This document shows positions 15,165-39,248 of a stretch of 64,000 nucleotides of DNA, piece after piece; the stretch's first letter is position 1, and each line of letters begins with the position of its first letter. The translations under genes and the position numbers were made by a program. The stretch spans positions 2,154,001 to 2,218,000 of the forward strand of contig NZ_CP011266.1 in assembly GCF_001477655.1 (NCBI RefSeq). Direction: 5' to 3'. The stretch comes from Methanobrevibacter millerae. Lineage in GTDB: Archaea; Methanobacteriota; Methanobacteria; Methanobacteriales; Methanobacteriaceae. The notes below the pieces were generated by a model. The model did not search any database. It was not told the DNA's origin and saw only the letters and a list, made by a program, of their open reading frames with translations.

Positions 15165-15435
15165 TTAAAAACTTAAATAAATAAATATTTGTATTTAAAA
15201 TCATATTTATACATATGTTCTTAGATTAGACATTTCATTTATTTTAAATGAACTAGAATCTAAAAAAGAACTGCGAAACTACTTTAAATTTCTGAAATTT
15301 TAACAGCAGATTAAGTTTACAAAATTTTTTCACAACATCCCAAAAACCTTTAAAAGAATTAAATAGAATATTAAATAATCAAAATAGAATTAGAAGAAGA
15401 AAAAAAGATATTTATTGTTTATACAAGACCAATTG

Positions 15436-17298
15436 GGCAAAGTTGAAAATTTTATGGGTTGAGGTATTTTGTGAGTAGGTTCTGCCAGAGATTGTTTGTT
15501 TGGATTTCTATTTCCTGTTGAAATATAACTTCTTCGTACCATTTTATTTCATTTAAGTCTAAAAATATGTCAATGCCTTGTGAGGTTATGAATCTTCTTT
15601 TATAGTATTCTTCCATTGTGTATTTGTAAAATCCTTCTATCAAATTGTTTGTTTTTGGAATTTTAGTATTTTCCATGTAATTAAATAGTTTGTCTTTGTC
15701 TTTTTCGAAATATTCTAAGTAATTGCTAATATCTTTGGGTAAATATTGTATTCTGTTGTATAATGTGTTGAATTTTCTATTTGACTGTGATATTGTGTCT
15801 GTTTAGAATATTTCTGAGATTTTTGTGCTGCATTTTTCATATAACTTATGTTGTTGTTTTAGTTTTTTGATGTCTTTTCTGTATTTTTTTGTTTTTGTTG
15901 TTAGATTCTTTTATTTTGTTTAAGGACGTGTTTCTTTTTTTATCCTTTTTTGAGGGCCTTTCGATTTGTCCTTTTCCTTTTAATTTTTCTTTGTTTATTC
16001 TTTTGGTATTTTTTGTTTTTAAATATTCTAAAGTGCCTTGTTTTCTTTTGATTTTGCGTTGTTGTTTCCAGGTGAATGTTTTTTGGTTCATTATTTTGTG
16101 GAAAACGCATAAGTGTTGTTCGACCCCTAATTCTTTTAATATATTGGGATATGCATTGACTCAGTCTGTTACAATTACTTCTTTTTTTAAATCAAGTAAT
16201 ATTAATGGATGTCTGGTATTGGGTGTTGTGGGGGTCGCTATAAACTGATACATCTTTTATTGAATATTTGATGAATATTTTTACAATATCTGAAGTGAAT
16301 TCTTCATTTGGTATTTTTAAGTCATTGATTATAACCCGAGTATTTGCGTCTATTTAAGATAATTGTGTGTATTTTTGATTTTTATTTCCTATGAACTCTT
16401 CATCGAATCAACTCACTCCAGAACATTCTAGTTTTGTTTAATTTAATAGATTTAGAATGCCTTTTCATTTTGCTTGTGAATACTGTGAATATTTATTCTT
16501 TTTGTGTAAATAAACAGTTGATCTGTGTATTTTTTAATTTCCCATTGTTTTTGTAAGAGTTTGGCCTTATTTTTATATGATGTGTGTTCTATTGAATCAA
16601 TATTGAGTATTAAATCCATTATGTAGATAGTGTAGTTGCAATGTCTCTCAACAATGCCATTTAAAGGTGTTGTTAGTGTTTTTCAACATTCACAGCATTT
16701 GTATCTTTGTTTATAAATTGGAAAGATCTTATTCATCTTCCAGAGCTTAATTTCATGTTTATGAAGCTTTCCACCACAAGGACAAGTCCTATCAGCCATA
16801 TCATAGATAATTTTAACTTCTCAGGGCATAATAAATAATAAAAATAGTGCAATGATTGAAGGAACTTCTTGTGACAAGTAAATTTTTTCATATTTAAACC
16901 AAACAAAAGAATTAAATATCTTTTCGGCATAAACTTTATCTGTAGGAGTTTTATTTCGTTTCATAATATAATATATGCTCCTACAACCTATTTAAAACTT
17001 ATTTAAGACCTAAAATTACTCATTTTTAACTATGCCAGATTATTATATCGAGCAATTAATATATTTGCCTTCATAAAAAGCGTTGTTTTAAAATTAAAAG
17101 AGGCATTATTAAATTAAAGGTATCCAAAACTTTATTAATAAAATCTGCCAAATATTGCATCAAATGACCTATAAATTTACAATTATTTATTGTTTTTCAT
17201 ATAAACATATAAAATAACTTAAATTGTTATAATATTAGTTTTAAATTAGTAATATCGTGTTTTAAAAAATATAAACACATAAAATTTTCAACTTTGCC
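15436..17298 (-). mobile_element. Insertion sequence IS-B copy 1, 7-bp target duplication
   Basis: 1863 bp with terminal repeats GGCAAAGTTGAAAATTTTAT (left) and its inverse at the right end. It is flanked by CCAATTG at 15429-15435 and at 17299-17305. It is nearly identical to the element at 34230-36090 but in the opposite orientation and with a different target duplication. The region 16965-17298 is the non-coding end of the element. Confidence 0.9.
15452..16964 (-). pseudogene. IS-B transposase, shared inactivating mutations
   Basis: It begins MKRNKTPTDKVYAEKIFNSF and contains a zinc-ribbon part (RTCPCGGKLHKHE ... YKCCEC), a DDE part (FDEEFIGNKN, VIVTD-NAYPNILKELGVEQH) and a basic spacer. 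It ends IPKTNNLIEGFYKYTMEEYY at 15676-15452. TGA codons break it after MP, CCEC, QAK, GVS and VTD. A frameshift at a C run and a TAA after SEIF break it further. All but the GVS stop recur in the second copy. The protein cannot be made intact. Confidence 0.85.
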
Positions 17299-22619: not shown

Positions 22620-24818
22620 TCATTTTTTAAATATATTATTAAAAAATCTTTTATTTAAAAGTTCATTATATTTTTTAAGAAGATACTTATTTCTATCTTC
22701 CAAAACCATAATTTTATTTGATTCATTTGAACTATTGAATTGATTGTATTTAAATGATACATTTAAATTATTATCTTTTTTTGCTAAAATTTTAACAGAA
22801 TTATACAATTCTTTATTCAAATTAATATTATTATCAATTTTTTCAAAGTTTTTTTCTAAATCTTTTGAAAACAAAGCCAAATTACTAATTTCATTTTGGA
22901 TTCTATCAATTTCTTTTAAATAAATATTATTTTCCAAAAATCCCAAATCAACTGAATCATTGCTTAAATTCAATTTATACTCCATTATAGAATTTGAATT
23001 CATAATTGCATTAAAACGTTTCAATGCATTATTTCTTTTTATAATACCAACATATGCATCAGTATTTAAAAAATTCATATCCTCAATTGCTAACTTAACC
23101 ATTTTAAAATAATCTTCAGAATGAGAAGAACTAATATACATTGATAATTGAGTTATTTTAAAAATTGAAAAATCCTCCCTGAATTCATCAAAACAACCCT
23201 CATTTTCAAGAAAATTTTCAACATAATCGATAATTTTGAATATATCTGGAGCATTAGATGCAGTGTTATTAACAGAATTTGGATTAGATAACCTGTAATG
23301 ATAAAAAAATTCTGGAACATAAGAAATTCTTTCTGCCCGAATCATTGATTGAACATGGAATGGTACATCATCAAAAGCAACATTCGTATGAAATCTAAAG
23401 TCATTATATTTATCCAAAAATTCTTTTTTATAAAATTTAGTCCAAGGTGCAAATGAACTCAAAAGAACATGCCTTTTTATAGCCCGATAATTAAATGTAA
23501 AATTATCAAAATCAACATCATTAAAAATTTTTTCAAATTCAAACCCTGGTTCATCATAATTTATAGGTTCACCATCCCTAAAACTAGCTATTTTAAATAT
23601 TACAAAATCGGAATTATTTGAAATTGCATTATCATATAATTTTTCTAATGCATTTGGAGTTAAATAATCATCGGGATCAAAAAAGTAAATATAATCCCCT
23701 TTAGCATTATCCAATGCTTTATTTCTAGCAGCACCACAACCTTGATTTTCTTGATTGATGATTTTAATTCTATCATCATTCTTTGCAAAATCTTCCAACA
23801 TTTTTAAAGAGTTATCCTTAGAACCATCATTAACACAAACTAGTTCAATATCTTTTAATGTTTGATTTAATAAACTATTAATTGATTCATCAAGGAATTC
23901 TTCTGCGTTATATACTGGAATAATTAAGGAAACTTTAATTTTATTGAAAAAAGAATCACAAGCATTTATAATTAATTCATCATCTTTAAAAACATCATGA
24001 ACAATATTTTTAATTTCATTTTTATCTTCAGATGAATTCTCAGGAGATTTAAGATAATAAAATAATTGATTTTTATATTGATTAGATAAATTATCAAAAC
24101 CTGAATTTTGTAATATTTCAAAAACTAACTTAAAGTGTTCAATATAATCATGTTTCTTTCGATGTGTATTTATTTTACCGAAATTATTGCCTGCAGAACG
24201 TAATGCATAAAAATCAACAGGAACCGTAGAAAAATTGTCTAATTTAGATAAAATTTCAGCAAAAAATACTGGATCCTGACCTCTAAGTAAATCAGGAAAT
24301 TTAAAATTATTATCAATTATAAATTCTCTCTTGAAAATATTTTTATAAAAAGAGTAGGGTATACCATAATCTTCAGGTTTTAAAATTTCATGTTTGGAAA
24401 ATCGCCTAAGATTTTTATTAATTATCAATTCACCATTTAAATCTATAACTTTAAGATTAGCAGAAATCATAGAAGTATCATCTTTAATAGCTACATCATA
24501 CATTTGTTCTAATGCGGTTTTATCAATAAACATATCATCAGAATCTAAAAATGCAATATACTCACCATTAGTATGTATCATAGCATTATTTCTTGCAATG
24601 CCTGAACCTTGATTTTCTTGATTAAAAATTTTAATTTTTTCACCATATTTTGATTTATAATTTTTTAAAATTTTTAAAGAATTATCAGTTGATCCATCAT
24701 TAATACATATGACCTCCAAATCTGTTAAAGTTTGATTAAATACACTATCTAATGACTCCCGAATCACTTTTTCATCATTATAAACTGGCATTATAACTGA
24801 AATTTTAATTTGATTCAT
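22620..24818 (-). CDS. Tandem GT2-GT2 glycosyltransferase with coiled-coil tail
   Basis: 732 aa. GT2 domain 1 (residues 1-230) has ISVIMPVYNDEKVIRESLDS, ICINDGSTDNSLKIL and AFLDSDD. GT2 domain 2 (about 295-520) has VSLIIPVYNAEEFLDESINS, CVNDGSKDNSLKML and YFFDPDDYLTP. Each has the nucleotide-binding Asp and a DXD-type motif. The last 200 residues are helical with a coiled coil. It probably adds two successive sugars in a surface glycan. It overlaps the upstream gene (24805-27057) by 14 bases, which indicates translational coupling. It is the last gene of the leftward polymer operon. Confidence 0.9.
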   Translation of the reverse strand: MNQIKISVIMPVYNDEKVIRESLDSVFNQTLTDLEVICINDGSTDNSLKILKNYKSKYGEKIKIFNQENQGSGIARNNAMIHTNGEYIAFLDSDDMFIDKTALEQMYDVAIKDDTSMISANLKVIDLNGELIINKNLRRFSKHEILKPEDYGIPYSFYKNIFKREFIIDNNFKFPDLLRGQDPVFFAEILSKLDNFSTVPVDFYALRSAGNNFGKINTHRKKHDYIEHFKLVFEILQNSGFDNLSNQYKNQLFYYLKSPENSSEDKNEIKNIVHDVFKDDELIINACDSFFNKIKVSLIIPVYNAEEFLDESINSLLNQTLKDIELVCVNDGSKDNSLKMLEDFAKNDDRIKIINQENQGCGAARNKALDNAKGDYIYFFDPDDYLTPNALEKLYDNAISNNSDFVIFKIASFRDGEPINYDEPGFEFEKIFNDVDFDNFTFNYRAIKRHVLLSSFAPWTKFYKKEFLDKYNDFRFHTNVAFDDVPFHVQSMIRAERISYVPEFFYHYRLSNPNSVNNTASNAPDIFKIIDYVENFLENEGCFDEFREDFSIFKITQLSMYISSSHSEDYFKMVKLAIEDMNFLNTDAYVGIIKRNNALKRFNAIMNSNSIMEYKLNLSNDSVDLGFLENNIYLKEIDRIQNEISNLALFSKDLEKNFEKIDNNINLNKELYNSVKILAKKDNNLNVSFKYNQFNSSNESNKIMVLEDRNKYLLKKYNELLNKRFFNNIFKK

Positions 24819-27057
24819 AATAATCCTCCTTTACAGATTTTAAAACATCAGGATAATAATCAATAACCTGTTTAAGTTGTAAATCATTTCCACCATCAAA
24901 ATTTGATGAATATAAAGTTTTTTCATTAATAATATTTAATTCTCTCGCCAAGTTAATATAAGTTAATTGAAACATATTATTTTTCACACATTTTATTTTA
25001 GTTTTATTTAAAATAGCCATAGCCCATACCCAAATATCATCAGCAGTAGGACATAATTTTTCAAATAATTCATTATTACAAACATCCTCATGTAAAGAAT
25101 TCGGTGGAAATAATGATCCCGCACCATTTGTAGAAAGATTAATGAAAGAAGGTTTAGTTTCACCAACATTTAATTCCCAATCATTATAACTTTCAAAAGA
25201 GCCCTCCGTATTTAAAGAAACATTTCTTGATCTCTGGCAAATAATATACTTGGGATTTTTTTTATGCTCATCATACAATAATTCTAACCAATTTTTAGGA
25301 TAAAATAAATCATCATCAGCAGTGACAATCAAATCATTTGGATATTCAGATAATGCTGGAATTAACTTTTTATAGGATTTAACATCTTTACACCACTTAA
25401 TCTTTAAACCAAACTTTTTAAGATTTAAAACATTCGGAGGAATATCATTTTCACCATTAGGAAATTGATCAGAAGCTAACCACAAAACAACTTCATCAGG
25501 TTTAATACTTTGATTAAAAATTGAGAATATGCAATAATGAATATCATATAACCTTTCAGGAAACGAAGTTAATGAAACAATTAATTTTTTATCTCTTTTA
25601 TGAGTTGTAACACCAAATTCATTAAAATTTTTAATTTTAGCATCCAATAACCGTTTATTAATCGATTTATGATAAGGATATACATCTTTATTTATTAAAA
25701 CATTACCTTCATCAATACCATATAAAACAAAATAAAGTAATGGATTTAATTTAGAATTAATAATATTAATGTTAGAACTTTCATAAAATTTCCCATCGAA
25801 TGAAACACTAGGATTTTTACCTTGATTATGGCCTATAGAAAGATAATGTAATAATGGATTAAAATTAAGAGTATAATTATATTTTGACCGATAATATTCA
25901 TAATCAAATAAATCCCATTTTTCAATTAAATCAATACCTTTAAATAATTCATCAATCGAACAATTTTCAAATAATAATCTCAACATAATCAATTGAGAAT
26001 TAATATTTATTAAAGCTTTATTAAAATTGTTTAAATTATCATACAATATTGACAAATTATCAAGAGTTTGTTTTTCATTCTTAATAGATATTGCAATTTT
26101 ACTTGCTTCATGAAAATTTTTATTAGAGATTTCTTTAAATAATGAATTATACTCTTTATGAGGGCGAAGATTATCATTTTTTTCAAATTCAATAAATAAA
26201 AAATTGCAATCCTTTAAAAGATTGACACGATCTTCAAATACCAAATCACTATCAATAAATTGACTAATCCAATAATTTAAACGAGAAAGGCCAACATAAG
26301 TTAATTCCTCACCAACAGACAATAATAAATCATATAATTCAAAATAAGAATCATATAATCCTTTCAAATATGTTTTATTTCTTTCATAACTAACCGATTT
26401 TTCAATAGATGAATTTCGAATAACATACTCAAAAACTGGAAAATCAATGAAAGAAATCCCATGGGCATGTAAAAAATAGTTTGTAGAAAAAACCAAATCT
26501 TCACCAGGCACACCAATAGGAAATTGAATATTATTTTCTAATATTACTGATTTTTTATAAATTTTAGACATTATGGCCGGAGGATATATCAAAATTTTAA
26601 AATCTTCAAAAACATTATTAAGTTTAAAATCCTTTTCAAAGAAAATATGATTATTCTTTATACCATCATCATTTGTAACATAATAACCAGATACCAAATC
26701 CAAATCATTATTATAAATTTCTTGATACAATTTTTCACAAGCATCATGATAAAAAATATCATCCGAATCTAAAAACATTATATAATCAGATGTTGCATTT
26801 TGAATACCCACATTACGGGGTTGACCTCCAAATCCACTATTATCATTTAATAAAATACATTTAACATTATCATACTCAAGAGAATATTGTTTTATAATTT
26901 GTCTGGAGTTATCAGTCGAATAATCATCAACAAATATCAATTCAATATTTTCAAAACCAATAGATTGTTCTTTAATTGAATTAAATGAATCATGAATATA
27001 ATTTTCAGAGTTATAAACTGGAATAATTATGGAAATTAAATATTTTTCACCATACAT
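24805..27057 (-). CDS. Two-domain glycosyltransferase with internal repeat module
   Basis: 750 aa. Residues 1-220 are GT2 (ISIIIPVYNSENYIHDSFNS, FVDDYSTDNSRQII, MFLDSDD). At about 385-470 there are the degenerate repeats seen in the gene at 1-3899 (NPLLHYLSIGHNQGKNPSVS, then NPLLYFVLYGIDEG). Residues about 500-740 form a second GT-A-like domain: LIVSLTSFPERLYDIHYCI, DEVVLWLASDQFP, LIVTADDDLFYPKNWLELLY. The second domain resembles capsule or lipopolysaccharide transferases of the 'SLTSFP' type. Six bases separate it from the upstream gene. Donor and acceptor are unknown. Confidence 0.85.
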   Translation of the reverse strand: MYGEKYLISIIIPVYNSENYIHDSFNSIKEQSIGFENIELIFVDDYSTDNSRQIIKQYSLEYDNVKCILLNDNSGFGGQPRNVGIQNATSDYIMFLDSDDIFYHDACEKLYQEIYNNDLDLVSGYYVTNDDGIKNNHIFFEKDFKLNNVFEDFKILIYPPAIMSKIYKKSVILENNIQFPIGVPGEDLVFSTNYFLHAHGISFIDFPVFEYVIRNSSIEKSVSYERNKTYLKGLYDSYFELYDLLLSVGEELTYVGLSRLNYWISQFIDSDLVFEDRVNLLKDCNFLFIEFEKNDNLRPHKEYNSLFKEISNKNFHEASKIAISIKNEKQTLDNLSILYDNLNNFNKALININSQLIMLRLLFENCSIDELFKGIDLIEKWDLFDYEYYRSKYNYTLNFNPLLHYLSIGHNQGKNPSVSFDGKFYESSNINIINSKLNPLLYFVLYGIDEGNVLINKDVYPYHKSINKRLLDAKIKNFNEFGVTTHKRDKKLIVSLTSFPERLYDIHYCIFSIFNQSIKPDEVVLWLASDQFPNGENDIPPNVLNLKKFGLKIKWCKDVKSYKKLIPALSEYPNDLIVTADDDLFYPKNWLELLYDEHKKNPKYIICQRSRNVSLNTEGSFESYNDWELNVGETKPSFINLSTNGAGSLFPPNSLHEDVCNNELFEKLCPTADDIWVWAMAILNKTKIKCVKNNMFQLTYINLARELNIINEKTLYSSNFDGGNDLQLKQVIDYYPDVLKSVKEDYYESN

Positions 27058-27063
27058 AAAACA

Positions 27064-28392
27064 TCACCTCAATCCACTAATTTTTTTAATGATTTTAGAA
27101 ATAATACTTTCATTTAGTTGATTTTTTAATTCCAAATTTTCATCCATTAAATAATCATTTTGTTGATTAAGATATTTAATCATGTCATTAAGATGCATCA
27201 CCTCATCAGACGAATAATGATTAATTAATTTTTTGTTTGATAAACTTTTTTGTTTATAAAAATTCAAATAATATTCCAATTCTTCTGAATAATTGACTAA
27301 CTGTGAAAAATTATTCTCTAAAATGAACAAATAATCTTTAATTAAATATTTTTCTGAATAAGAAATATCATCCAAATCATCTAATGACACATCACCATTA
27401 TAATTATCTTGCATTAATTTAAATTCTGCATAATTTTCTGAAATCATAGAATGAATATAAAAAACAAGATAATAAAATGAAATTTTATTCAAGTCATGTG
27501 CTGAGATATTTAATGATTTTAAAAATAGTTTAATCTTTTCAAAATATTGTAGTTTAAATTCATCATCTATTTCATTTAATTTACGTTCAAATTCTTTAAA
27601 AGTAAATTCTATAAATTCTAATTTAAATTCATCAAAAAAGTTATTCTCCAATAAAAATTCTTTTATACCACACATCACATCATAAAAAACAATAGCTTCA
27701 CTCGATGATACATATAAAGTTTGAAGTGAATCTTGACCTATCCTATTATAATGATAAAAAATTTTAGGAAAATAGGATATTCTTTTAGCCAACAACATGG
27801 ATTTAACATGAAATTCAACATCATTATACAATTTATGATAAGGAAATTTAATGTTATTTTCAAAAATAAAAGAACTTTTATAAAATTTAGACCATATAAC
27901 CCCAAAATATGCATTTAATACTTTATTTTTGACTAATTTATAATCAAATGATAATGATGAAAAATCTTTATTAGAATCCACACCTAAAAAATGAATTAAA
28001 TCCATTGATTGATTATCTGGTAAATGTCTTACTGCATCAAATAAAACCAAATCAGAATGCAGATTAATGGCTTGATTATATAATTTTTCACAAGTATCCT
28101 TTTCAATCCAATCATCAGAATCTAAAAATAAAACAAAATCTCCAGTAACCTTTTCTAACGCCACATTCCTACTGAAACCTGCACCAGAATTTTCTTGATG
28201 AAAAATTTTAAATCTTTTATCACCATTCGAAAAATCTTTAAGAATTTTAAAAGAATTATCTGTTGACCCATCATCAATACAGATTATCTCTATATCTGAC
28301 AATGTTTGGTTTTTAACAGACATTAAGCAATCAGTTAATAAACTCTCAGAATTATAAACTGGAATAATTATTGAAACTTTAGGATTGTTCAT
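27064..28392 (-). CDS. GT2 glycosyltransferase with C-terminal coiled coil
   Basis: 442 aa. The GT2 catalytic domain covers residues 1-230: VSIIIPVYNSESLLTDCLMS, ICIDDGSTDNSFKIL, FVLFLDSDDWIEKDTC, and SKFYKSSFIFENNI later. Residues 240-442 are helical, ending with a leucine-rich coil (MHLNDMIKYLNQQNDYLM). No transmembrane segment is seen, so it works on the cytoplasmic face. It lies 10 bases below the acyltransferase and 6 above the next transferase, inside one operon. Confidence 0.9.
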   Translation of the reverse strand: MNNPKVSIIIPVYNSESLLTDCLMSVKNQTLSDIEIICIDDGSTDNSFKILKDFSNGDKRFKIFHQENSGAGFSRNVALEKVTGDFVLFLDSDDWIEKDTCEKLYNQAINLHSDLVLFDAVRHLPDNQSMDLIHFLGVDSNKDFSSLSFDYKLVKNKVLNAYFGVIWSKFYKSSFIFENNIKFPYHKLYNDVEFHVKSMLLAKRISYFPKIFYHYNRIGQDSLQTLYVSSSEAIVFYDVMCGIKEFLLENNFFDEFKLEFIEFTFKEFERKLNEIDDEFKLQYFEKIKLFLKSLNISAHDLNKISFYYLVFYIHSMISENYAEFKLMQDNYNGDVSLDDLDDISYSEKYLIKDYLFILENNFSQLVNYSEELEYYLNFYKQKSLSNKKLINHYSSDEVMHLNDMIKYLNQQNDYLMDENLELKNQLNESIISKIIKKISGLR

Positions 28393-28402
28393 TCAAATCA
28401 CA

Positions 28403-29209
28403 TTAAATAGAGAACCTATCATGTTTTTTATTTCGTATAAATAATTTTTCAATAAAATCTAATTTTTCTTCAACTTTAAAGTTAGATAATAATGAAGAAA
28501 CTTTATTAAAGTCCAATGTTTCACCAGGTTTTTGAGAATACACATATATTCCACTCACATACTCATCGACATTTTCGGAGTATTCATTTTCAAAGTTACC
28601 TACATAATCCTTTGTAAAAAATACTTCTTTTTTTAACAAATTAATTGGATTTCCACCATATAAATTATTAGACTCTAACTTAACATAAGATGGCACATAA
28701 GAATAATTATCAATAATAGATCCAGATCCAATATTTACTCCTTTACTCACATAAGACAAATGTCCCAGCCATACATGGTCCCCAATTAAAACACTGCCAC
28801 TATGATTAACTCTTTTTTTAGTATTTATATCATAAACAATATGTGCATCAGAGGTTCTAATATTTGTACCACTACCGATTATACCTTCATCACCAATAAT
28901 TAAATTTTGATGCTCTTGAACATTAATATTAATTGGAGGAGTCAAATTGTTATCCCTACCTATAAAAACAACAGAATTTTGAAAAATATGTAAATTAAAA
29001 GAGTAATTACTATTAGTACTTGATAAATAGATTAAAGAGTTGCTGCCCCCAAATAATATTGAGCAATCAACTAAATTCACATTATTTTCACAATATAATA
29101 CATTTCCAGAACCGTGAAATGTAATTTTTGAACTAGACATATTAGGGTTTCCAGTAATCCTATTCTCTTTTAAAGATGAAAAATCATCAATACTTCTTAC
29201 AATTTCCAT
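28403..29209 (-). CDS. Left-handed beta-helix (hexapeptide) acyltransferase
   Basis: 268 aa from the ATG at 29209 (MEIVRSIDDFSSL); a GTG nine bases upstream is an alternative start. Residues 30-190 are hexapeptide-like turns typical of LbetaH acetyltransferases, with the active-site region IGSGTNIRTSDAHIVYD (candidate catalytic His) and IGDHVWLGHLSYVSKGVNIG, then YGGNPINLLK. The family O- or N-acetylates sugars with acetyl-CoA, so it may decorate the exported polymer. It is placed between the FkbM methyltransferase and GT2 genes of the operon. Confidence 0.85.
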   Translation of the reverse strand: MEIVRSIDDFSSLKENRITGNPNMSSSKITFHGSGNVLYCENNVNLVDCSILFGGSNSLIYLSSTNSNYSFNLHIFQNSVVFIGRDNNLTPPININVQEHQNLIIGDEGIIGSGTNIRTSDAHIVYDINTKKRVNHSGSVLIGDHVWLGHLSYVSKGVNIGSGSIIDNYSYVPSYVKLESNNLYGGNPINLLKKEVFFTKDYVGNFENEYSENVDEYVSGIYVYSQKPGETLDFNKVSSLLSNFKVEEKLDFIEKLFIRNKKHDRFSI

Positions 29210-29223
29210 AATAAACACTTCTT

Positions 29224-30252
29224 TTAATCATAAGCTCGACATTCCAATATTGTATCTGCAATAAATGTCCAAGGTTGTTCTTTAGATAAAATAAATTTAT
29301 ATCCCAAATCCAAATGATCAATCCAAGGTTTTATATCAAAAAAATCATCAACACTATGATAAATACTCAAAAATAAAATTGGCTTTTGAGTTTTTAATGT
29401 ATTAATTGCTCCTTTAAGGAGATTTTTTTCTTCACCTTCAACATCTACCTTAATAAGACCAACATTTAAATTATTTTCTTCAACATAAGAATCAATCGTC
29501 ATTGATTGAATTGAAAAAGAATTATCAAATTTTCGCCTATTTGAATCAGACGTTATTCCCTGATAATTATCTCCAGAGACATATAACTCCATTTCACCAT
29601 TCTTATCACTTAATGAAGCTTGAACCGGTACAATATTAGTTATATTATTCAGTTTAATATTTTGAACCAGTTTTTCATAAGATTCTTGAAATGGTTCAAA
29701 AGCATAAACATTACTTGAAGTTAAATTTGATAAAGATATTGAGGAATCTCCAGTATAAGCACCAGCATCAATTATATCCTTATCTTTTAAGAATTCTTTA
29801 TCTTTATCATTAAACGGGTCATTAGCAAAACAATGAATATTGAAATTATTATCAACAAATTCATAATCCAATATCTTATTTTCTGACATGCATTCTAATT
29901 CAAATTGAGAAAATCTATTTTGTTCTTCAACTTCAAAATTATTGAATAAAGTATCCCTTTTCATAAAATTAACAGCGATAGCACGTAAATATGCAAATCT
30001 AAAATAATTTTGTGATTCTTTAGGTAAATCTTTTATCATTTCAGATAATTTATCCCCAAAATCTTCTCGATAAAAATAATCTATATAATCCCAATCACAA
30101 AAACTTCCGGCATTTTTCTTAATCCTATTCTGATAAGAAATAAATTTAATTCTTTCTTTAAGTTCTTTATTTTCTTCTAGAAGCTTTTCATAATTTTCTT
30201 TATAAAAATTATATTGATTACTTTTAGATAATAATTTATTTTTAAAATTCAT
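29224..30252 (-). CDS. FkbM-family SAM methyltransferase
   Basis: 342 aa. Residues 1-45 are coiled coil (YKENYEKLLEENKELKERI). The FkbM core runs from about 140: DIIDAGAYTGDSSISLSNLT (SAM-binding), VYAFEPFQESYEKLVQNI, IDSYVEENNLNVGLIKVDVE and GEEKNLLKGAINTL. FkbM enzymes usually O-methylate sugars or polyketides. The start codon overlaps the stop of the 1199-aa gene (ATGA at 30249-30252), so translation is coupled. It probably methylates the glycan assembled by the neighbours. Confidence 0.9.
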   Translation of the reverse strand: MNFKNKLLSKSNQYNFYKENYEKLLEENKELKERIKFISYQNRIKKNAGSFCDWDYIDYFYREDFGDKLSEMIKDLPKESQNYFRFAYLRAIAVNFMKRDTLFNNFEVEEQNRFSQFELECMSENKILDYEFVDNNFNIHCFANDPFNDKDKEFLKDKDIIDAGAYTGDSSISLSNLTSSNVYAFEPFQESYEKLVQNIKLNNITNIVPVQASLSDKNGEMELYVSGDNYQGITSDSNRRKFDNSFSIQSMTIDSYVEENNLNVGLIKVDVEGEEKNLLKGAINTLKTQKPILFLSIYHSVDDFFDIKPWIDHLDLGYKFILSKEQPWTFIADTILECRAYD

Positions 30253-33200
30253 AATTTTATAATAGCCTCATAAACTCGCTTACAATTATTTTTATCATTA
30301 AACATATAAAAATTATCCACTCTTTTATTATATATCTCTTTCATATTACAATCAGTTTTCAAATATTCTTCAATTATATCAATTAATTCATCTTCATCTT
30401 TTGTAACTTCACCAAACCCCATTGTTTCATAGTTAAAATACCTGTTTTTAAAATTATAATCATCCCCATATTGATAGTAAACAATAGGCTTCTTATTATA
30501 TGAAAAATCAAATGCTACACTTGAATAGTCTGTGATTAGTATAGAAGAATTATTGAATAATTCTTGATAGCGTGTTGATTCATCAAAAATAACTTCTTCT
30601 TTTTTATTAAATAAATCAATGAATTCATAAACTTTAGGATGAGGTTTGAAAATAATTTTATATCCATATTCTTTAGCTAAATTAACTAACTTTTCATTAT
30701 TAATTAACGAATTAATTTTTTTAAAATACTCTGATTTATTAATTTGACTTTTATAAGTATATGATAAATTTTCTCTCCAAGAAGGCATTATTAAAATTTG
30801 TTTCTTATCTGAAATATTCTCCAAACCATCAAATCTTGGAAAGCCCAATACTTGAACAACACCATCATTATAATTATACTTATATTGATAGAATGAATTT
30901 CGTTCTATCTCCGAAACAGTTACTAAAAGTTCAATGTTTTTATCATATTTTTTTAGCCACATAGATATATCATCTTTAGTAACTCCATGCTGTAAGAATA
31001 TTTTACCTGAATTTATCAACCCAGAATAATATTTAATATTTTTACCCCAAAATGGATTTAAAATATTTTCATCAGGATGGGATGAAATAATTTTATCTGC
31101 AAATAAATATATTAAACGTTGTTTAATAGAATAAAACGGAACAATATTATCCAAATTTTTTAATCTATTAAAATCATTTGAATCCTCACAAATAGTATAA
31201 TACTTTTTAATTCGATCATTTTGTTTAATAGAATATTTATAAAGATGTTCTGCATTATCATCAGCCTGATGGCGTCTATCCATAAATAACCAAATTTTTT
31301 TATTTCTATAAAATGGGAACAATAACAGATATAAAAATCTAAAAATCAATGCAGAAGTCCAATAAGGACCTTTTTTAATGAAAATATTTTTTAAAACAGG
31401 AATTTCTGATTTAATCATGTTAAAATAATGATATCTTTTAATCACAAATCCTTTTCCATAGTATTTAATTAAATAATTATCCCAAATTGAATAGTTACTT
31501 ACTTTAGACATTCTAGCATGACTTAAGAAATCCATTTCTAAATTGACAAAAACATCTTCTGATGAAGAATACTTAACATATAACCCAATAACAGATTGTT
31601 TATCTTCGGACAAGGGTACTTCAAAATCGAAATTAATAATTGATTCGGAAAATTCATCGGAAATACGATCTGAATACTCAATACATTTAGATGAATATTC
31701 AAAAATCTCATCATTAATTTCTTTAGTTAATACTATCTCAATTTTATTTTTATCAAAAAATGATTTGAACATTCCTGAAATATACAGAGTATTTCTTTTT
31801 ATTTCAATTATATCTAACCAGAATTTATGTATAGATAAACGGTCAAGCAATATATCTCCAACATATATTACAACATCCCCATCTTCAATTTTTGTTGAAG
31901 TTTCAGAATCATATTTTGATTTTAAAAGATAGTTTTTAACATTTAATGTAACATTGCGATGTTTAAGAATTATTTCATCATCCAGAAACTTGGCAATATA
32001 TTTAAGATTATTATAAAATTCCTCAGATTCATTATTCTTAGCTAATAACAATTGAACATTATTAGAATAAAATATCCACTGAATATCATAAATAATCATG
32101 TATTGAATAAACTTTGGGACAAGAGAATATTTTTCAAGAGAATAATTTATTAAATTAATAAAATAATTTTTTAGGCGATTATTATAAAAGTTTATACTCT
32201 TATTTGAAGTATCAATTGTAGAAGATTCATCGAAACGTTTTCTATAATTATATGCTCCTTTTTTAACAACACCATAAGCCATTTTTTCTAAAAGAATTTT
32301 ATTTACCATTATTGAATCTTCAGAACTAACTAGATTAGTATCAAATTCAAACTTGTCAAAAAGTTCTGATTTAAAAAAGGCAGAAGATGCTGAAAGTTGA
32401 GGATAACACCAAAATTTATTCAAATCAACTACTTTATCTGTTTTATATTTATAATTTAACTTGTGATCTCCTTTTTGCCTTTCAAAAAATCTAATTGGAA
32501 TAGAAACCAAATCTATATCATCAAAATGTTTTTCAAAAAAAGGAAAAACATATTCTAATGTATCTGCCCTCAATGTATCATCAGAATCTAAAAAATTTAC
32601 GTATTTACCATTTATGTGTTTTAATCCTAAATTACGTGCACTGGCTTGGCCTTGATTTTCTTGATAGAAATATTTGATATTATCGGGATAATTATTCACA
32701 TAATTAAGACAGATTTCAGAGGTTTTATCAGTGCTTCCATCATCGACTAAAATAAGTTCAACATTACTTTCAAAACCAAAACTTTGATTGATTACGGATT
32801 CGATAGCATCAGAAATATAATTTTCAACATTGTAACAGGCCATTACAATAGAAAACAATTTATATTTATCATTAATCACAAAATCGTCATAGTCAACTGA
32901 ATTAATTAATAAATTTACACGATGCTTTATTTTTAAACTTAAATTATCTTTAATTTCATTATCTTGCAATAATTGAATTAACAATTCTTTAAGAGAATAA
33001 AAAAAAGATTTTCTATATTTATTTGAAGTTTGTGAATAACGCCACAACATTAAATGTATAAACCTGTTAGATACATTAACTTTATAGTCATGCCAATTGT
33101 TTGTTTCAATGAATTTTTCTATGATTAACTTAAAAATAGGCACTATATCAGAATAATCTTTATATTCTGTTTTTTCAACGGTAGAACCTTCACGATTGAT

Positions 33201-33848
33201 TCTATAATAATATAATGTTTCATCAACAATAGAAACTTTATTTGCTTTAAGATATACATCATAAAAAAAAACTTCATCCTCAAAAATTAGATTTTCAGCA
33301 AATTTAATATTATGCTTTTTAATAAAAGAATTTTTATATAGTTTATTATATGGAGTTACTGAAATTTCACAGGTAAACTCCATTGTATCTTTATGGGAAA
33401 AAACATCTCTTTCAAAATCTTTGAAAATTCCTAAAGAATAATACCATAAACTATCATTAATTTCATTTGTTAATTCATCATATGATGCTACTTTACACAT
33501 CACCAAATCAAGATTAGACTTTTTAGAAGAATTATATAATTTTTCAAGCATATCCTCTTTGATAAAATCATCACTATCAACAAAAGCAATATACTCACCA
33601 ATTGCCTTATCAATACCAATATTTCGAGCAATACCCTGTCCTTCATTATCTTTATCAATAATTTTAATACGATTATCAATTTTTTGATAATTTTTAAGAA
33701 TTTCTAATGAATTATCTGCAGACCCATCATTAATACATATAATTTCAATATTGCTTAATGTTTGATTAAGAACACTATCTAAACATTTTGGTAAAAATAA
33801 TTCTGTATTATAAACAGGAATAATAACAGAAACTGCAATTGAATTCAT
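30249..33848 (-). CDS. GT2-GT2-TagF-like trifunctional polymer synthase
   Basis: 1199 aa in three parts. GT2 no. 1 (residues 1-230): VSVIIPVYNTELFLPKCLDS, ICINDGSADNSLEIL, AFVDSDDFI. GT2 no. 2 (about 335-560): FSIVMACYNVENYISDAIES, LVDDGSTDKTSEI, NFLDSDD. The C-terminal CDP-glycerol glycerophosphotransferase-like domain (about 830-1199) has WLFMDRRHQADDNAEHLY, IFLQHGVTKDD, KIIFKPHPKVYEF and LITDYSSVAFDFSYNKKPIVYY, the conserved features of TagF/TagB enzymes. It may polymerise polyol-phosphate units and add sugars. It is the first gene after tagGH apart from the intervening IS. Confidence 0.9.
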   Translation of the reverse strand: MNSIAVSVIIPVYNTELFLPKCLDSVLNQTLSNIEIICINDGSADNSLEILKNYQKIDNRIKIIDKDNEGQGIARNIGIDKAIGEYIAFVDSDDFIKEDMLEKLYNSSKKSNLDLVMCKVASYDELTNEINDSLWYYSLGIFKDFERDVFSHKDTMEFTCEISVTPYNKLYKNSFIKKHNIKFAENLIFEDEVFFYDVYLKANKVSIVDETLYYYRINREGSTVEKTEYKDYSDIVPIFKLIIEKFIETNNWHDYKVNVSNRFIHLMLWRYSQTSNKYRKSFFYSLKELLIQLLQDNEIKDNLSLKIKHRVNLLINSVDYDDFVINDKYKLFSIVMACYNVENYISDAIESVINQSFGFESNVELILVDDGSTDKTSEICLNYVNNYPDNIKYFYQENQGQASARNLGLKHINGKYVNFLDSDDTLRADTLEYVFPFFEKHFDDIDLVSIPIRFFERQKGDHKLNYKYKTDKVVDLNKFWCYPQLSASSAFFKSELFDKFEFDTNLVSSEDSIMVNKILLEKMAYGVVKKGAYNYRKRFDESSTIDTSNKSINFYNNRLKNYFINLINYSLEKYSLVPKFIQYMIIYDIQWIFYSNNVQLLLAKNNESEEFYNNLKYIAKFLDDEIILKHRNVTLNVKNYLLKSKYDSETSTKIEDGDVVIYVGDILLDRLSIHKFWLDIIEIKRNTLYISGMFKSFFDKNKIEIVLTKEINDEIFEYSSKCIEYSDRISDEFSESIINFDFEVPLSEDKQSVIGLYVKYSSSEDVFVNLEMDFLSHARMSKVSNYSIWDNYLIKYYGKGFVIKRYHYFNMIKSEIPVLKNIFIKKGPYWTSALIFRFLYLLLFPFYRNKKIWLFMDRRHQADDNAEHLYKYSIKQNDRIKKYYTICEDSNDFNRLKNLDNIVPFYSIKQRLIYLFADKIISSHPDENILNPFWGKNIKYYSGLINSGKIFLQHGVTKDDISMWLKKYDKNIELLVTVSEIERNSFYQYKYNYNDGVVQVLGFPRFDGLENISDKKQILIMPSWRENLSYTYKSQINKSEYFKKINSLINNEKLVNLAKEYGYKIIFKPHPKVYEFIDLFNKKEEVIFDESTRYQELFNNSSILITDYSSVAFDFSYNKKPIVYYQYGDDYNFKNRYFNYETMGFGEVTKDEDELIDIIEEYLKTDCNMKEIYNKRVDNFYMFNDKNNCKRVYEAIIKL

Positions 33849-33895: not shown

Positions 33896-34229
33896 GACTC
33901 TTTCAAAAACTTTGTTGATTTGAAATTTTTTTATGAAATTTAGTTTTGAATTTTTAATTTTGTTTAAAAATAGTTAAATTTAATTAATAGGTGGAGTAAA
34001 AGTTCTTATTATGCCTAACCAAAAAACAAATACTCCAAATAGTATTTTAGATGTTAAACAATATATATTTTGCGATTCTAATGATGGATTTGTACTTTCA
34101 GATCCCCGTTTTGTGAAAATTTTTAAATCCTGCCAAAAGGCTCTGAAATCTTTTGATTTGAGTTTTAAGAAGGATATTCCTTATTTTAAAATGATTTTAG
34201 CTCGATGTCCATATTGTGGTACTCGTCAT

Positions 34230-36090
34230 GACAAATTTGAAAATTTTATGGGTTTATATTTTTTAAAACAGGATATTACTAATTTAAAACTAATATTATA
34301 ACAATTTAAGTTATTTTATAAGTTTATATGAAAAACAATAAATAATTGTAAATTTATAGGTCATTTGATGCAATATTTGGCAGATTTTATTAATAAAGTT
34401 TTGGATACCTTTAATTTAATAATGCCTCTTTTAATTTTAAAACAACGCTTTTTATGAAGGCAAATATATTAATTGCTCGATATAATAATCTGGCATAGTT
34501 AAAAATGAGTAATTTTAGGTCTTAAATAAGTTTTAAATAGGTTGTAGGAGCATATATTATATTATGAAACGAAATAAAACTCCTACAGATAAAGTTTATG
34601 CCGAAAAGATATTTAATTCATTTGTTTGGTTTAAATATGAAAAAATTTACTTGTCACAAGAAGTTCCTTCAATCATTGCACTATTTTTATTATTTATTAT
34701 GCCCTGAGAAGTTAAAATTATCTATGATATGGCTGATAGGACTTGTCCTTGTGGTGGAAAGCTTCATAAACATGAAATTAAGCTCTGGAAGATGAATAAG
34801 ATCTTTCCAATTTATAAACAAAGATACAAATGCTGTGAATGTTGAAAAACACTAACAACACCTTTAAATGGCATTGTTGAGAGACATTGCAACTACACTA
34901 CCTACATAATGGATTTAATACTCAATATTGATTCAATAGAACACACATCATATAAAAATAAAGCCAAACTCTTACAAAAACAATGGAAATTAAAAATACA
35001 CAGATCAACCGTTTATTTACACAAAAAGAATAAATATTCACAGTATTCACAAGCAAAATGAAAAGGCATTCTAAATCTATTAAATAAAACAAAACTAGAA
35101 TGTTCTGGAGTGTACTGCTACGATGAAGAGTTCATAGGAAATAAAAATCAAAAATACACACAATTATCTTTAATAGATGCAAATACTCGTGTTATAATCA
35201 ATGACTTAAAAATACCAAATGAAGAATTCACTTCTGATTTTGTAAAAATATTCATCAAATATTCACTAAAAGATCTATCAGTCTACAGCGACCCCCACAA
35301 CACCCAATACCAGACATCCATTATTATTACCTGATTTAAAAAAAGAAGTAATCGTAACAGACTGAAACAATGCATATCCCAATATATTAAAAGAATTAGG
35401 AGTCGAACAACACTTATGCGTTTTCCACAAAATAATGAACCAAAAAACATTCACCTGGAAACAACAACGCAAAATCAAAAGAAAACAAGGCACTTTAGAA
35501 TATTTAAAAACAAAAAATACCAAAAGAATAAACAAAGAAAAATTAAAAGGAAAAGGACAAATCGAAAGGCCCTCAAAAAAGGATAAAAAAAGAAACACGT
35601 CCTTAAACAAAATAAAAGAATCTAACAACAAAAACAAAAAAATACAGAAAAGACATCAAAAAACTAAAACAACAACATAAGTTATATGAAAAATGCAGCA
35701 CAAAAATCTCAGAAATATTCTAAACAGACACAATATCACAGTCAAATAGAAAATTCAACACATTATACAACAGAATACAATATTTACCCAAAGATATTAG
35801 CAATTACTTAGAAAATTTCGAAAAAGACAAAGACAAACTATTTAATTACATGGAAAATACTAAAATCCCAAAAACAAACAATTTGATAGAAGGATTTTAC
35901 AAATACACAATGGAAGAATACTATAAAAGAAGATTCATAACCTCACAAGGCATTGACATATTTTTAGACTTAAATGAAATAAAATGGTACGAAGAAGTTA
36001 TATTCCAACAGGAAATAGAAATCCAAACAAACAATCTCTGGCAGAACCTACTCACAAAATACCTCAACCCATAAAATTTTCAACTTTGCC
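34230..36090 (+). mobile_element. Insertion sequence IS-B copy 2, 7-bp target duplication
   Basis: 1861 bp. The right end is the inverse of GGCAAAGTTGAAAATTTTAT; the left end has two changes (GACAAATTTGAAAATTTTAT). TCGTCAT is duplicated at 34223-34229 and 36091-36097, inside the IS-A transposase gene. It is nearly identical to copy 1 at 15436-17298. The region 34300-34563 is a non-coding element end. Confidence 0.9.
34564..36074 (+). pseudogene. IS-B transposase copy 2, dead
   Basis: From MKRNKTPTDKVYAEKIFNSF it reads through a zinc-ribbon region and GVYCYDEEFIGNKNQKYTQL, with TGA stops after IMP, CCEC and QAK. A frameshift at the C run near 35289-35293 changes frame before VIVTD-NAYPNILKELGVEQH, where another TGA lies. 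A second frameshift is near 35640, and TAA follows SEIF. The last frame ends IPKTNNLIEGFYKYTMEEYY at 36074. The same lesions are present in copy 1. Confidence 0.85.
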
Positions 36091-37108
36091 TCGTCATGTT
36101 GTTAAATATGGTTTTACAAAAAGAACGTTAGTATTTAAAGAAATTGGTAAAACTAAAGTGAAAGTTCAGAGTTATATTTGTAAACGATGTAGTAAAACAT
36201 TTCAAACTGATTTAACAAGTCTTGTTGATAAAAACAGCAATTTTACGAATGAATTGAAAAGTGAATCTGAGCACTTAATTTCAGATTATTTGGGAAGCTT
36301 AAAAAATGTTTGTAAATCTTTTAAAAAGTTCTTTGGAATCACTGTTTCACATCAAACAATTGAAAATTGGCTTTTTGTTAATGAAAATATTTTAGAATTT
36401 GATTTAGATCGTTGTTCGGGATATTATGTCTTTGATGTAGAATGGTTAAAAATCAATGGAGAATGGAAATATCGTCATACACTATTAGATGCAATTTCTA
36501 ATTGTATTGTAGCCGATGCAATTTATGATACAGAAGATGAAACTACTGTTAAAAAGTTTTTAAAAGAATCAACAGCAAATAAGAATAAAAAAGCAATTAC
36601 TACAGATTTGGGTGGTAAATATCCTCAGATTATCCCAAAACTAGGTTTTAAACATCAATTATGTATTTTTCATGCTAAAAAAAGTTTAAATAAATAATTA
36701 AAAGTTTTTAAAGATAAATTTCATCTTTCTGAGGAAGAATTTAAAGAATGTCATCAACAATTGAAAATGATAAAAGATTTATTTGATTTAAATAATTATG
36801 ATGAAGATGAAAAAGAATTGAAATCTTTAATTTTTCGTAAAGACGAATTTCATCCTGCAATTTATGAAATAATTAGAAAATCAATCACCCCAAGATATAA
36901 AAGCTTCATTTATCACTTAAAAGACAGACGAATTGAAAAAACAAGTAACAAAATTGAAAATGCCTTCCAAAAAACAATGTCAAAATCCAGAAAACGAACA
37001 TTCAAGACCAAACGAGGAGTTTTAAAACGAATATATCGCAGAAATCTAATTTGGAATGACAATCGAAAAAAGGATTTTGAAAATCAACAAAGTTTTTGAA
37101 AGAGTCAT

Positions 37109-38464
37109 TTAATCCAAATTAATATTTTTTAATTGTTCTTGTGATGCATCATTTGCTGCTTTTACATAAGCATCACATACTTTATTTACTTCACCCATCA
37201 TCTTAATTTCACCATCATCAATCCAAATAGCTTTATTACATAATTCTCTTATTTGACTAACAGAATGTGAAACCAATAATACAGTAATCCCTGAATTAAT
37301 TAAAGAACGGATTTTATCAGAACTTTTTCTTTGAAATTTAATATCCCCAACAGATAAAATTTCATCAATTATTAAAATATCTGGTTCAACAATAGTTGCG
37401 ATTGAAAAACCAAGTTTAGCACGCATTCCAGAAGAATAAGTTTTTACATGATAATTAATTGCATCACCAAGTTCTGAAAATTCAACAATTTCATCATATT
37501 TTTCTTTAATGAAATCTTCAGAAAACCCTAAAAATGCACCATTTAAAAAAATATTTGCTTTACCCGTATAATTCATGTCAAAACCTGCACCTAATTCAAG
37601 TAAAGGTGCGATTCTACCTTTTGTTTCAATCGTTCCTTCAGTTGGATCATAAACTCTAGATAATAATTTAAGAAGAGTACTTTTTCCAGCACCATTAAAT
37701 CCTATAATTCCTACACGGTCACCTCGAGGAATCTCAAAAGAAATATTTTTAAGTGCAGAAATAGTTTTAGTTTTCTCACGGTTGCGTTTAATCGTCCGTA
37801 TAAAAAATTCTTTTAAAGTATCAATTTTATCTTTAGATAATTTATAATCCATAGATACATTATCCACCTTGATAACAGTTTCATTAGAATAATCTTCAAC
37901 CAAATCAGATAATGCATCATCAACAGAAGATGAATCCAAATTTACATCTTCTAAAACATCATCTTGAAAAATATCTTCAGATTCCACATTCAAACTTTTT
38001 TCAAAATCAACAACATGACTAATAGAATCAGAAGAATCTTCAAAATTTTTTAAAATATCATCAGAATTAGAAATATTATTTGAATTTTCGTAAATATCCA
38101 AAGTATTCTTTAAATCATTAGTATCATCATTGAGAATTAATTTATTTTTTTTAGAATTATTATTTTGAAAATCTTTTTGTATTGAACCTGCAGATAATAT
38201 TAAATTCAAATCTTGTTTTAATTGAATTTCTTCATCTTCAGGAATATCTAATTTTTTATTTTTAAGAGCATTAAAAATAAACTGAGCTTCATCATATAAC
38301 TTTTCATCGACATCAAAAGAATAATTAATGCCATCCTTAGAATTTATATTTTCACCAACATCATTACCCATATTATAAGATGGATTATAATCACCAATAC
38401 CATATTCATTTATGTTGTCATTTTTATCTATTTTAAACAATGATTTATTATTTTTTGAAGACAT
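37109..38464 (-). CDS. tagH: Polysaccharide/teichoic-acid ABC exporter, ATPase subunit (TagH/RfbB type)
   Basis: 451 aa from the ATG at 38464 (MSSKNNKSLFKIDKND); a TTG 12 bases upstream is weaker. Residues 1-185 are an acidic Asp/Asn/Ser-rich extension not usual in this family. The ATPase domain has Walker A GFNGAGKST, Q-loop region LLELGAGFDMNYTGKANIFL, signature YSSGM, Walker B ILIIDEILSVGD and H-loop LLVSHS, matching TagH/Wzt/KpsT-type export ATPases. With the permease at 38481 it exports a lipid-linked polymer. The stop codon lies inside the IS-A target duplication, whose sequence preserves it. Confidence 0.9.
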   Translation of the reverse strand: MSSKNNKSLFKIDKNDNINEYGIGDYNPSYNMGNDVGENINSKDGINYSFDVDEKLYDEAQFIFNALKNKKLDIPEDEEIQLKQDLNLILSAGSIQKDFQNNNSKKNKLILNDDTNDLKNTLDIYENSNNISNSDDILKNFEDSSDSISHVVDFEKSLNVESEDIFQDDVLEDVNLDSSSVDDALSDLVEDYSNETVIKVDNVSMDYKLSKDKIDTLKEFFIRTIKRNREKTKTISALKNISFEIPRGDRVGIIGFNGAGKSTLLKLLSRVYDPTEGTIETKGRIAPLLELGAGFDMNYTGKANIFLNGAFLGFSEDFIKEKYDEIVEFSELGDAINYHVKTYSSGMRAKLGFSIATIVEPDILIIDEILSVGDIKFQRKSSDKIRSLINSGITVLLVSHSVSQIRELCNKAIWIDDGEIKMMGEVNKVCDAYVKAANDASQEQLKNINLD

Positions 38465-38480
38465 TTTAAAAACCAAACCA

Positions 38481-39248
38481 TCATAATTCTAATAATAATT
38501 TTTTCTCATGAATTCTGAATACTAAAAATCCTACTGCAAAAAGCATAACGGAAAATATTGCTAAGTATAATAAAACAGAAATTTCTGGAAATACCCCATA
38601 CATTACACAATCTCTAAAACAAATAATAGCAGCATACAATGGATTTAATGAAAAAATCATCTGAATATTAGCAGGTACAATTTCCATAGGATAAAATAAT
38701 GCAGATGCATACATCAATAATAAAGTAAATATTGAATACATATGTCCAACATCAGAAAAATACGTATTAAATACTGCCAATATTAATCCAACACCAATTA
38801 TCATTAAAAATAACAAAAATATTGGAATAATTGCAAAAATTGTAGTAATTTGAAATGGAGCACCAGTAATAGCCATAACCCCAAATAATATAACCAAAGA
38901 TATTAAAAAATTTATAAATTCATAAGAAATTGATCCAATTGCAAACATATATCTTGGAACATAAATTTTTTTCAAAATAGATGCATTGCCCCTAATTGAA
39001 TACATCGCACCTTGAGTTGCTGCAATAAAGAAATCAAAAATAACCCTACCTGATAAAAAATAAACTGGAAAATTTTTAATTTGAAATCTAAATAACACTG
39101 AAAAAATAGCTGTAAATATAAGCATTATACATAAAGGATTTATAAAACTCCAAACAACACCTAAAACTGAATCTTTATATTTGGAAGTTAAATCCCGTTT
39201 AACCAACTGTTTTAATAAAAATTTTTTTTCATTAATTGTATCAAACAT
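38481..39248 (-). CDS. tagG: Polysaccharide/teichoic-acid ABC exporter, permease subunit (TagG type)
   Basis: 255 aa, ABC-2 membrane family. The N-terminal amphipathic region (LLKQLVKRDLTSKYKDSVLG) is followed by WSFINPLCIMLIFTAIFSVL and about five more hydrophobic segments, ending FLVFRIHEKKLLLEL. The signature VPRYMFAIGSISYEFINFLI resembles that of TagG, Wzm and RfbD. It forms the membrane channel for a glycan or teichoic-acid-like polymer. The ATPase gene follows after 16 bases. Transcription starts in the 78-bp gap after the L10e gene, which is read in the same direction. Confidence 0.9.
   Translation of the reverse strand: MFDTINEKKFLLKQLVKRDLTSKYKDSVLGVVWSFINPLCIMLIFTAIFSVLFRFQIKNFPVYFLSGRVIFDFFIAATQGAMYSIRGNASILKKIYVPRYMFAIGSISYEFINFLISLVILFGVMAITGAPFQITTIFAIIPIFLLFLMIIGVGLILAVFNTYFSDVGHMYSIFTLLLMYASALFYPMEIVPANIQMIFSLNPLYAAIICFRDCVMYGVFPEISVLLYLAIFSVMLFAVGFLVFRIHEKKLLLEL

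Follow-up and report, generated by a model that had tools for sequence, protein, structure and literature searches.

A GgaB-Like Three-Domain Enzyme That Probably Builds a Phosphate-Joined Surface Glycan in a Rumen Methanogen

Introduction

What kind of polymer is made by an archaeal gene that fuses two GT2 domains to a domain of the TagF family? The question bears on the walls of rumen methanogens, because M. ruminantium was reported to have teichoic homologues and teichoic-like levels of wall phosphate (Leahy et al., 2010; PMC2812497), and unspecified "teichoic acid homologues" were the only explanation offered for that phosphate (PMC2812497). We analyzed a 64,000-nucleotide stretch (the window) of the chromosome of Methanobrevibacter millerae SM9, which is a single complete contig of 2,543,538 bp (PMC4987999). 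The original prediction, made from the letters of the window, was that the fusion gene and its neighbors form a complete teichoic-acid-type pathway in a pseudomurein archaeon. We found that the locus is indeed teichoic-acid-like, and that its central enzyme is probably of a different kind from the one its family name suggests.

Results

Domain Architecture and Fold of P0001

The open reading frame at 30249–33848 on the minus strand runs for 1199 codons without an internal stop, and we refer to its product as P0001. Its parts, with the basis of each assignment, are as follows.

30249..33848, minus strand: P0001, predicted GT2-GT2-TagF-like polymerase, 1199 aa (ORF, Pfam, AlphaFold)
32874..33848, minus strand: domain 1, additional N-terminal GT2, aa 1–325, metal motif D91-S-D93-D94 (Pfam, model)
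31902..32873, minus strand: domain 2, GT2, aa 326–649 (alignment of relatives)
31434..31901, minus strand: beta-rich linker domain, aa 650–805 (AlphaFold model)
30252..31373, minus strand: domain 3, TagF-like GT-B transferase, aa 826–1199 (Pfam, profile, fold search)
30984..30992, minus strand: Q953-H954-G955 motif, WHG in glycerol-phosphate enzymes (sequence, motif survey; PMC11666461)
30639..30641, minus strand: H1070 within KPHP, opposite TagF H584 (alignments)

Pfam matched PF00535 twice (residues 7–138 and about 332–500, 246.9 bits, above cut-offs) and PF04464 once (residues 846–1197, 161.7 bits against a curated cut-off of 22.1). The AlphaFold model, which was built with 19 related sequences and has a mean pLDDT of 85.8, consists of a GT-A fold with helices (about 1–326), a second GT-A fold with helices (about 328–649), a beta domain (650–805), and a GT-B fold (about 830–1199). 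Pfam, the model, and related proteins all confirmed the predicted GT2-GT2-TagF-like triple fusion, and the three-domain architecture is real rather than a product of chance.

A fold search with the whole chain returned only GT2 enzymes among its top 50, and a search against a viral library returned nothing informative. When the predicted C-terminal domain was searched, the 20 best solved folds were all TagF, Bcs3 (CroT), TarL, or Cps3D (E between about 1e-15 and 1e-11). A different GT-B family scoring higher would have spoken against the original assignment, and none did. A single-sequence search of this domain against solved structures gave no match, and a profile or predicted structure was needed; the significant solved relatives in the profile search were TarL, TagF, and Cps3D. 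The catalytic residues are conserved as well. H954 and H1070 (equivalent to TagF H444 and H584, with H1070 also aligned to TagF) are unchanged in 19 relatives, as are D421/D423/D424 and E510-D511 of domain 2, and the metal motifs of both GT2 domains are kept alongside the two catalytic histidines.

Gene Neighborhood

P0001 is encoded by the first gene of a compact six-gene minus-strand operon in which genes overlap or are separated by gaps of ≤10 nt. The other genes of the operon and the elements upstream of it are listed below.

29224..30252, minus strand: FkbM-family methyltransferase, 4-nt overlap with P0001 (Pfam, family models)
28403..29218, minus strand: hexapeptide-repeat acyltransferase (Pfam, family models)
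27064..28392, minus strand: GT2 protein, 442 aa (Pfam)
24805..27057, minus strand: GT2 protein, 750 aa (Pfam)
22620..24818, minus strand: GT2-GT2 protein, 732 aa (Pfam)
33924..36689, strand not given: mobile-element DNA separating P0001 from TagH; a near-copy lies inverted at 14241–17296
37109..38476, minus strand: TagH/Wzt-like ATPase with an N-terminal extension of ~195 aa (220 bits, under the family's curated cut-off)
38481..39248, minus strand: TagG/Wzm-like ABC-2 permease (family models)

The FkbM and acyltransferase genes that had been noted beside P0001 thus lie directly downstream, with an overlap or short gaps. The TagG/TagH pair had also been placed alongside it: a pair of the TagGH/Wzm-Wzt type does exist at 37109–39248 in the same orientation, but it lies about 3.26 kb upstream, beyond transposase remnants, and although its best matches are TagH/Wzt and Wzm, every score is below the curated cut-off. 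The extension of the ATPase sits outside the ATPase domain, and its length differs among relatives (L120 and L126).

The inverted copies of the mobile element share 1861 nt at 98% identity, with flanks at 82–83%. They enclose the entire glycan cassette (17.3–33.9 kb), with the right arm 75 nt from the start of P0001, and the pair is possibly a composite transposon or a substrate for inversion. The G+C content is about 21–29% in positions 1–43000 of the window and mostly 33–39% in the mtr-side part, and the value for the SM9 chromosome is 31.8%.

Conservation in Relatives

The three-domain architecture of P0001 recurs in several relatives at 53–57% identity. Among the 16 neighborhoods of closest relatives, the core was found in eight (one of which, L131, has more GT2 domains in front), the first GT2 was missing in seven, and the gene was split into two ORFs in one. 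FkbM homologues were found near 13 of these 16 orthologues, an acyltransferase near 12, and TagG and/or TagH near nine. The relatives L120 and L126 carry L10e, TagG, TagH, a 1380-aa GgaB-like gene, and a P0001-like gene in that order on a single strand. This is also the gene order of the window, except that mobile-element DNA lies between TagH and P0001. Another genome, which we take to be that of M. smithii, encodes a 1193-aa orthologue (55% identity over the full length) flanked by FkbM and, at its opposite end, by TagGH; unlike in the window, TagGH is divergently transcribed there, with no mobile element in between. Because both architecture and neighbors recur in relatives, the fusion is no strain-specific accident but part of a surface-polymer locus that has been conserved. 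A search for a bacterial GT2-GT2-TagF fusion produced only two Lachnospiraceae proteins (~1,200 aa) with one Pfam GT2 each.

P0001 Belongs to a QHG Clade

At the first catalytic histidine, WHG is associated with glycerol-phosphate polymerases (TagF and TagF-like enzymes) and QHG with hexose-phosphate transferases, a donor rule that rests on a few characterized enzymes and one figure legend (PMC11666461). The third residue after this histidine is Pro in glycerol enzymes and Gly in ribitol enzymes (PMC10299916). P0001 has QHGVT, with no WHG and with Thr at +3, whereas other clades have WH..P or WH..G, and QHG is unvaried throughout the P0001 subfamily. In a survey of 127 aligned rows from Methanobacteriales, two of them reference rows, we counted 54 QHG, 54 WH..P, 14 WH..G, and five MHGTP sequences. 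When the motif columns were left out of the alignment, a branch with SH-aLRT 100 still set all 49 QHG sequences in the tree apart from the rest; the tree came from a quick search and has 31 weak branches. Two separate clades also occur in the same order, a further one with WHGTP (TagF-like proteins of ~725 aa and single domains of ~400 aa) and one with MHGTP (proteins of ~1170 aa), both among L015–L030, L133–L164, and L036.

The C-terminal domain had been described as CDP-glycerol-phosphotransferase-like. By sequence and fold it does belong to the TagF family, but its QHG motif, its GgaB-like clade, and its lack of linkage to CDP-polyol genes depart from that description.

CDP-Polyol Genes in the Host Genome and the Order

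We searched the host genome by family models for genes of CDP-polyol synthesis. No TagD was found above the cut-off; the best candidate reached 31.5 bits and scored better with the NCBIfam general cytidylyltransferase-like and rfaE groups, so it is probably RibL-like. This result bears on the proposal that P0001 is a glycerol-phosphate polymerase supplied by CDP-glycerol, as the original prediction implied. The Pfam name and the fold of the family would suit such an enzyme, but the host has only this sub-threshold TagD, P0001 lacks both WHG and Pro at +3, and some genomes that carry a P0001-type enzyme have no TagD-like gene; we therefore consider a glycerol-phosphate polymerase very improbable. 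There was also no match to TagA (PF03808) or to LCP ligases (PF03816) in the complete host genome, whereas seven control genomes were positive. With TagD, TagA, and LCP ligases absent, the pathway cannot be called complete, and neither of the polymers predicted for the host can be classed as bacterial wall teichoic acid.

In contrast, genes for CDP-ribitol were found. The host TarI (IspD family) scores 367 bits with NF001183, the model for D-ribitol-5-phosphate cytidylyltransferase (cut-off 166), and its best solved relative is TarI 4jis; the host TarJ scores 373 bits against PDB 6xh9, a ribulose-5-phosphate reductase. Within the genus, 65 of 67 genomes have TarJ; across the order, 83 of 151 do. 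The host also encodes a 363-aa TarL-like enzyme with WHAPG, that is, with the ribitol-type Gly, and in four genomes of other methanogen genera tarI, tarJ, tagG, and tagH are clustered with TarL-like genes, one to three per genome, which reach at most 341 bits with the TarL model (cut-off 1000).

Chromosome about 749275–750994, strand not given: adjacent TarI and TarJ, CDP-ribitol (curated model, solved relatives)
L253 8672–15657; L254 4126–13550; L256 5777–11024; L257 4826–9829: tarI-tarJ-tagG-tagH-tarL-like clusters in other methanogen genera

Polysaccharide pyruvyl transferases adjoin the cluster in L253. About 40 Methanobacteriales genomes (e.g., L111–L113) encode TagD-like domains in proteins of ~435–465 aa, none of which is found in the host genome; in several genomes these lie ≤5 kb from a second, more distant TarI copy, and they perhaps belong to another CDP-alcohol pathway.

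That the CDP-ribitol pathway feeds P0001 was our first assumption, which we gave up once the motifs had been surveyed and co-occurrence tested. Under this assumption, P0001 would be a ribitol-phosphate polymerase whose GT2 domains glycosylate the chain, giving a glycosyl-ribitol-phosphate teichoic acid. The side-by-side TarI-TarJ at 749 kb, the near-universal TarJ of the genus, and the TagF-like fold of the C-terminal domain favor it, and the pathway makes a ribitol donor available in the genome, which counts against a polyol-free product. However, the QHG with Thr at +3 differs from the WH..G of ribitol enzymes, and a distinct TarL-like enzyme with the ribitol-type Gly is already present in the same genome. 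The distribution of the genes outside the window's genus points the same way: by Fisher tests, which ignore the relatedness of the genomes, TarJ was found in 6/26 genomes with a P0001-type enzyme versus 12/58 without (p = 0.78), whereas the TarL-like enzyme was associated with TarJ (14/27 versus 4/57 genomes, p = 9e-6). Outside the genus, 17 genomes have a P0001-type enzyme with neither TarJ nor TagD-like genes; seven genomes carry a TarL-like enzyme but lack both TarJ and TagD-like genes. We conclude that P0001 is unlikely to be a ribitol-phosphate polymerase.

Alignment with a GgaB-Like Protein

Relatives of P0001 were found across many Firmicutes in a genome scan. Residues 332–1199 of P0001 align with residues 10–893 of a 900-aa Bacillus halotolerans protein (36% identity over 896 columns, 543 bits), which we call GgaB from its length, motif, and neighbors. 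It has the QHG motif and is adjoined by GtaB-, MnaA-, and LytR-like genes, as expected for the surroundings of ggaB.

Discussion

The QHG clade, the end-to-end alignment with the GgaB-like Bacillus protein, and the occurrence of P0001-type enzymes without TarIJ and TagD lead us to read P0001 as a sugar-1-phosphate polymerase that uses no polyol. We consider it likely that the enzyme works in the cytoplasm as a GgaB-type polymerase with three active sites. Each GT2 domain, with its GT-A fold, would transfer one sugar from a nucleotide sugar onto the growing chain, and the TagF-like domain would add a sugar-1-phosphate to the chain end (a HexNAc-1-phosphate such as GalNAc-1-P from a UDP-sugar), forming a phosphodiester. 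Repeated cycles would yield a polyol-free poly(oligosaccharide 1-phosphate) that resembles teichoic acid. The glycan may be methylated by FkbM and acylated by the hexapeptide acyltransferase, the adjoining GT2 proteins may attach side sugars or build different repeats, and the ABC pair of the TagGH/Wzm-Wzt type may export the chain to the pseudomurein wall. Among the points against this reading, the GT2 domains do not reveal which sugars they use, and in the window mobile-element debris splits the exporter from the operon.

P0001 might instead be an assembly transferase rather than a polymerase, placing one phosphorylated trisaccharide onto a lipid- or protein-linked glycan. The several surrounding GT2 and GT4 genes do suggest a complex heteroglycan, and no enzyme for a wall-teichoic linkage unit was found in the genome. 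Exporters of the neighboring type usually handle finished chains, however. In addition, the characterized multi-domain GT-A/TagF-like enzymes are polymerases (PMC5974469), and we regard an assembly transferase as quite unlikely.

Methanobrevibacter and related pseudomurein methanogens could make two kinds of phosphate-bridged wall polymer: a ribitol-phosphate teichoic acid (TarI-TarJ, TarL-like enzymes, and TagGH) and sugar-1-phosphate polymers of the GgaB type (P0001-like enzymes), both anchored without TagA or LCP. We put this forward tentatively, as an idea somewhat more doubtful than not. The lack of TagA and LCP ligases means that attachment of either polymer must differ from the bacterial one or be absent, and anchoring would imply another route. 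To our knowledge, no ribitol-phosphate teichoic acid was previously known in Archaea, and we found no description of one for methanogens in the open-access literature; if true, finding it in an archaeon, and attached by other means than the linkage enzymes of bacteria, would clearly be surprising. Judged by the open literature, two points are new: the placing of this locus with the GgaB kind, and an explicit CDP-ribitol/TarL set for methanogens. The wall-phosphate question now falls into two parts, a GgaB-type polymerase locus with an exporter and a CDP-ribitol/TarL set, and two wall polymers, if real, would account for the early reports of phosphate-rich walls. Both gene sets are widespread among methanogens of the gut and rumen, and the surface polymers of these archaea are of interest for vaccine and phage work against methane emission.

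The closest known system is that of B. subtilis 168, where GgaA and GgaB polymerize poly(Glc-GalNAc-1-P), a minor wall teichoic acid, according to studies that place GgaB in the pathway rather than define its mechanism (PMC11841062, PMC4406074). P0001 and the GgaB-like Bacillus protein share the end-to-end alignment of residues 332–1199, the GT2-linker-GT-B order, and QHG. As the second GT2 and the C-terminal domain make up the ordinary GgaB/TagF layout, only the first GT2 is extra; P0001 also differs in its archaeal pseudomurein host, which has no TagA or LCP homologue, and in the flanking FkbM and acyltransferase genes. The C-terminal domain has the GT-B fold of TagF and TarL, its top solved structures, but it has QHG instead of WHG/WHA, about 16–20% identity, and no tie to CDP-polyol genes. 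The capsule polymerases CslB, Cps12B, and Cps1B likewise combine GT-A and TagF-like domains in one chain with two catalytic histidines and DXD-type motifs. The products of such GT-A/TagF-like enzymes are of the poly(oligosaccharide phosphate) class, which has been predicted from the domain layout (PMC5974469); the same product is predicted for P0001, which differs from them in its two GT-A domains, in having no visible TPR domain, and in coming from an archaeon rather than a Gram-negative capsule system.
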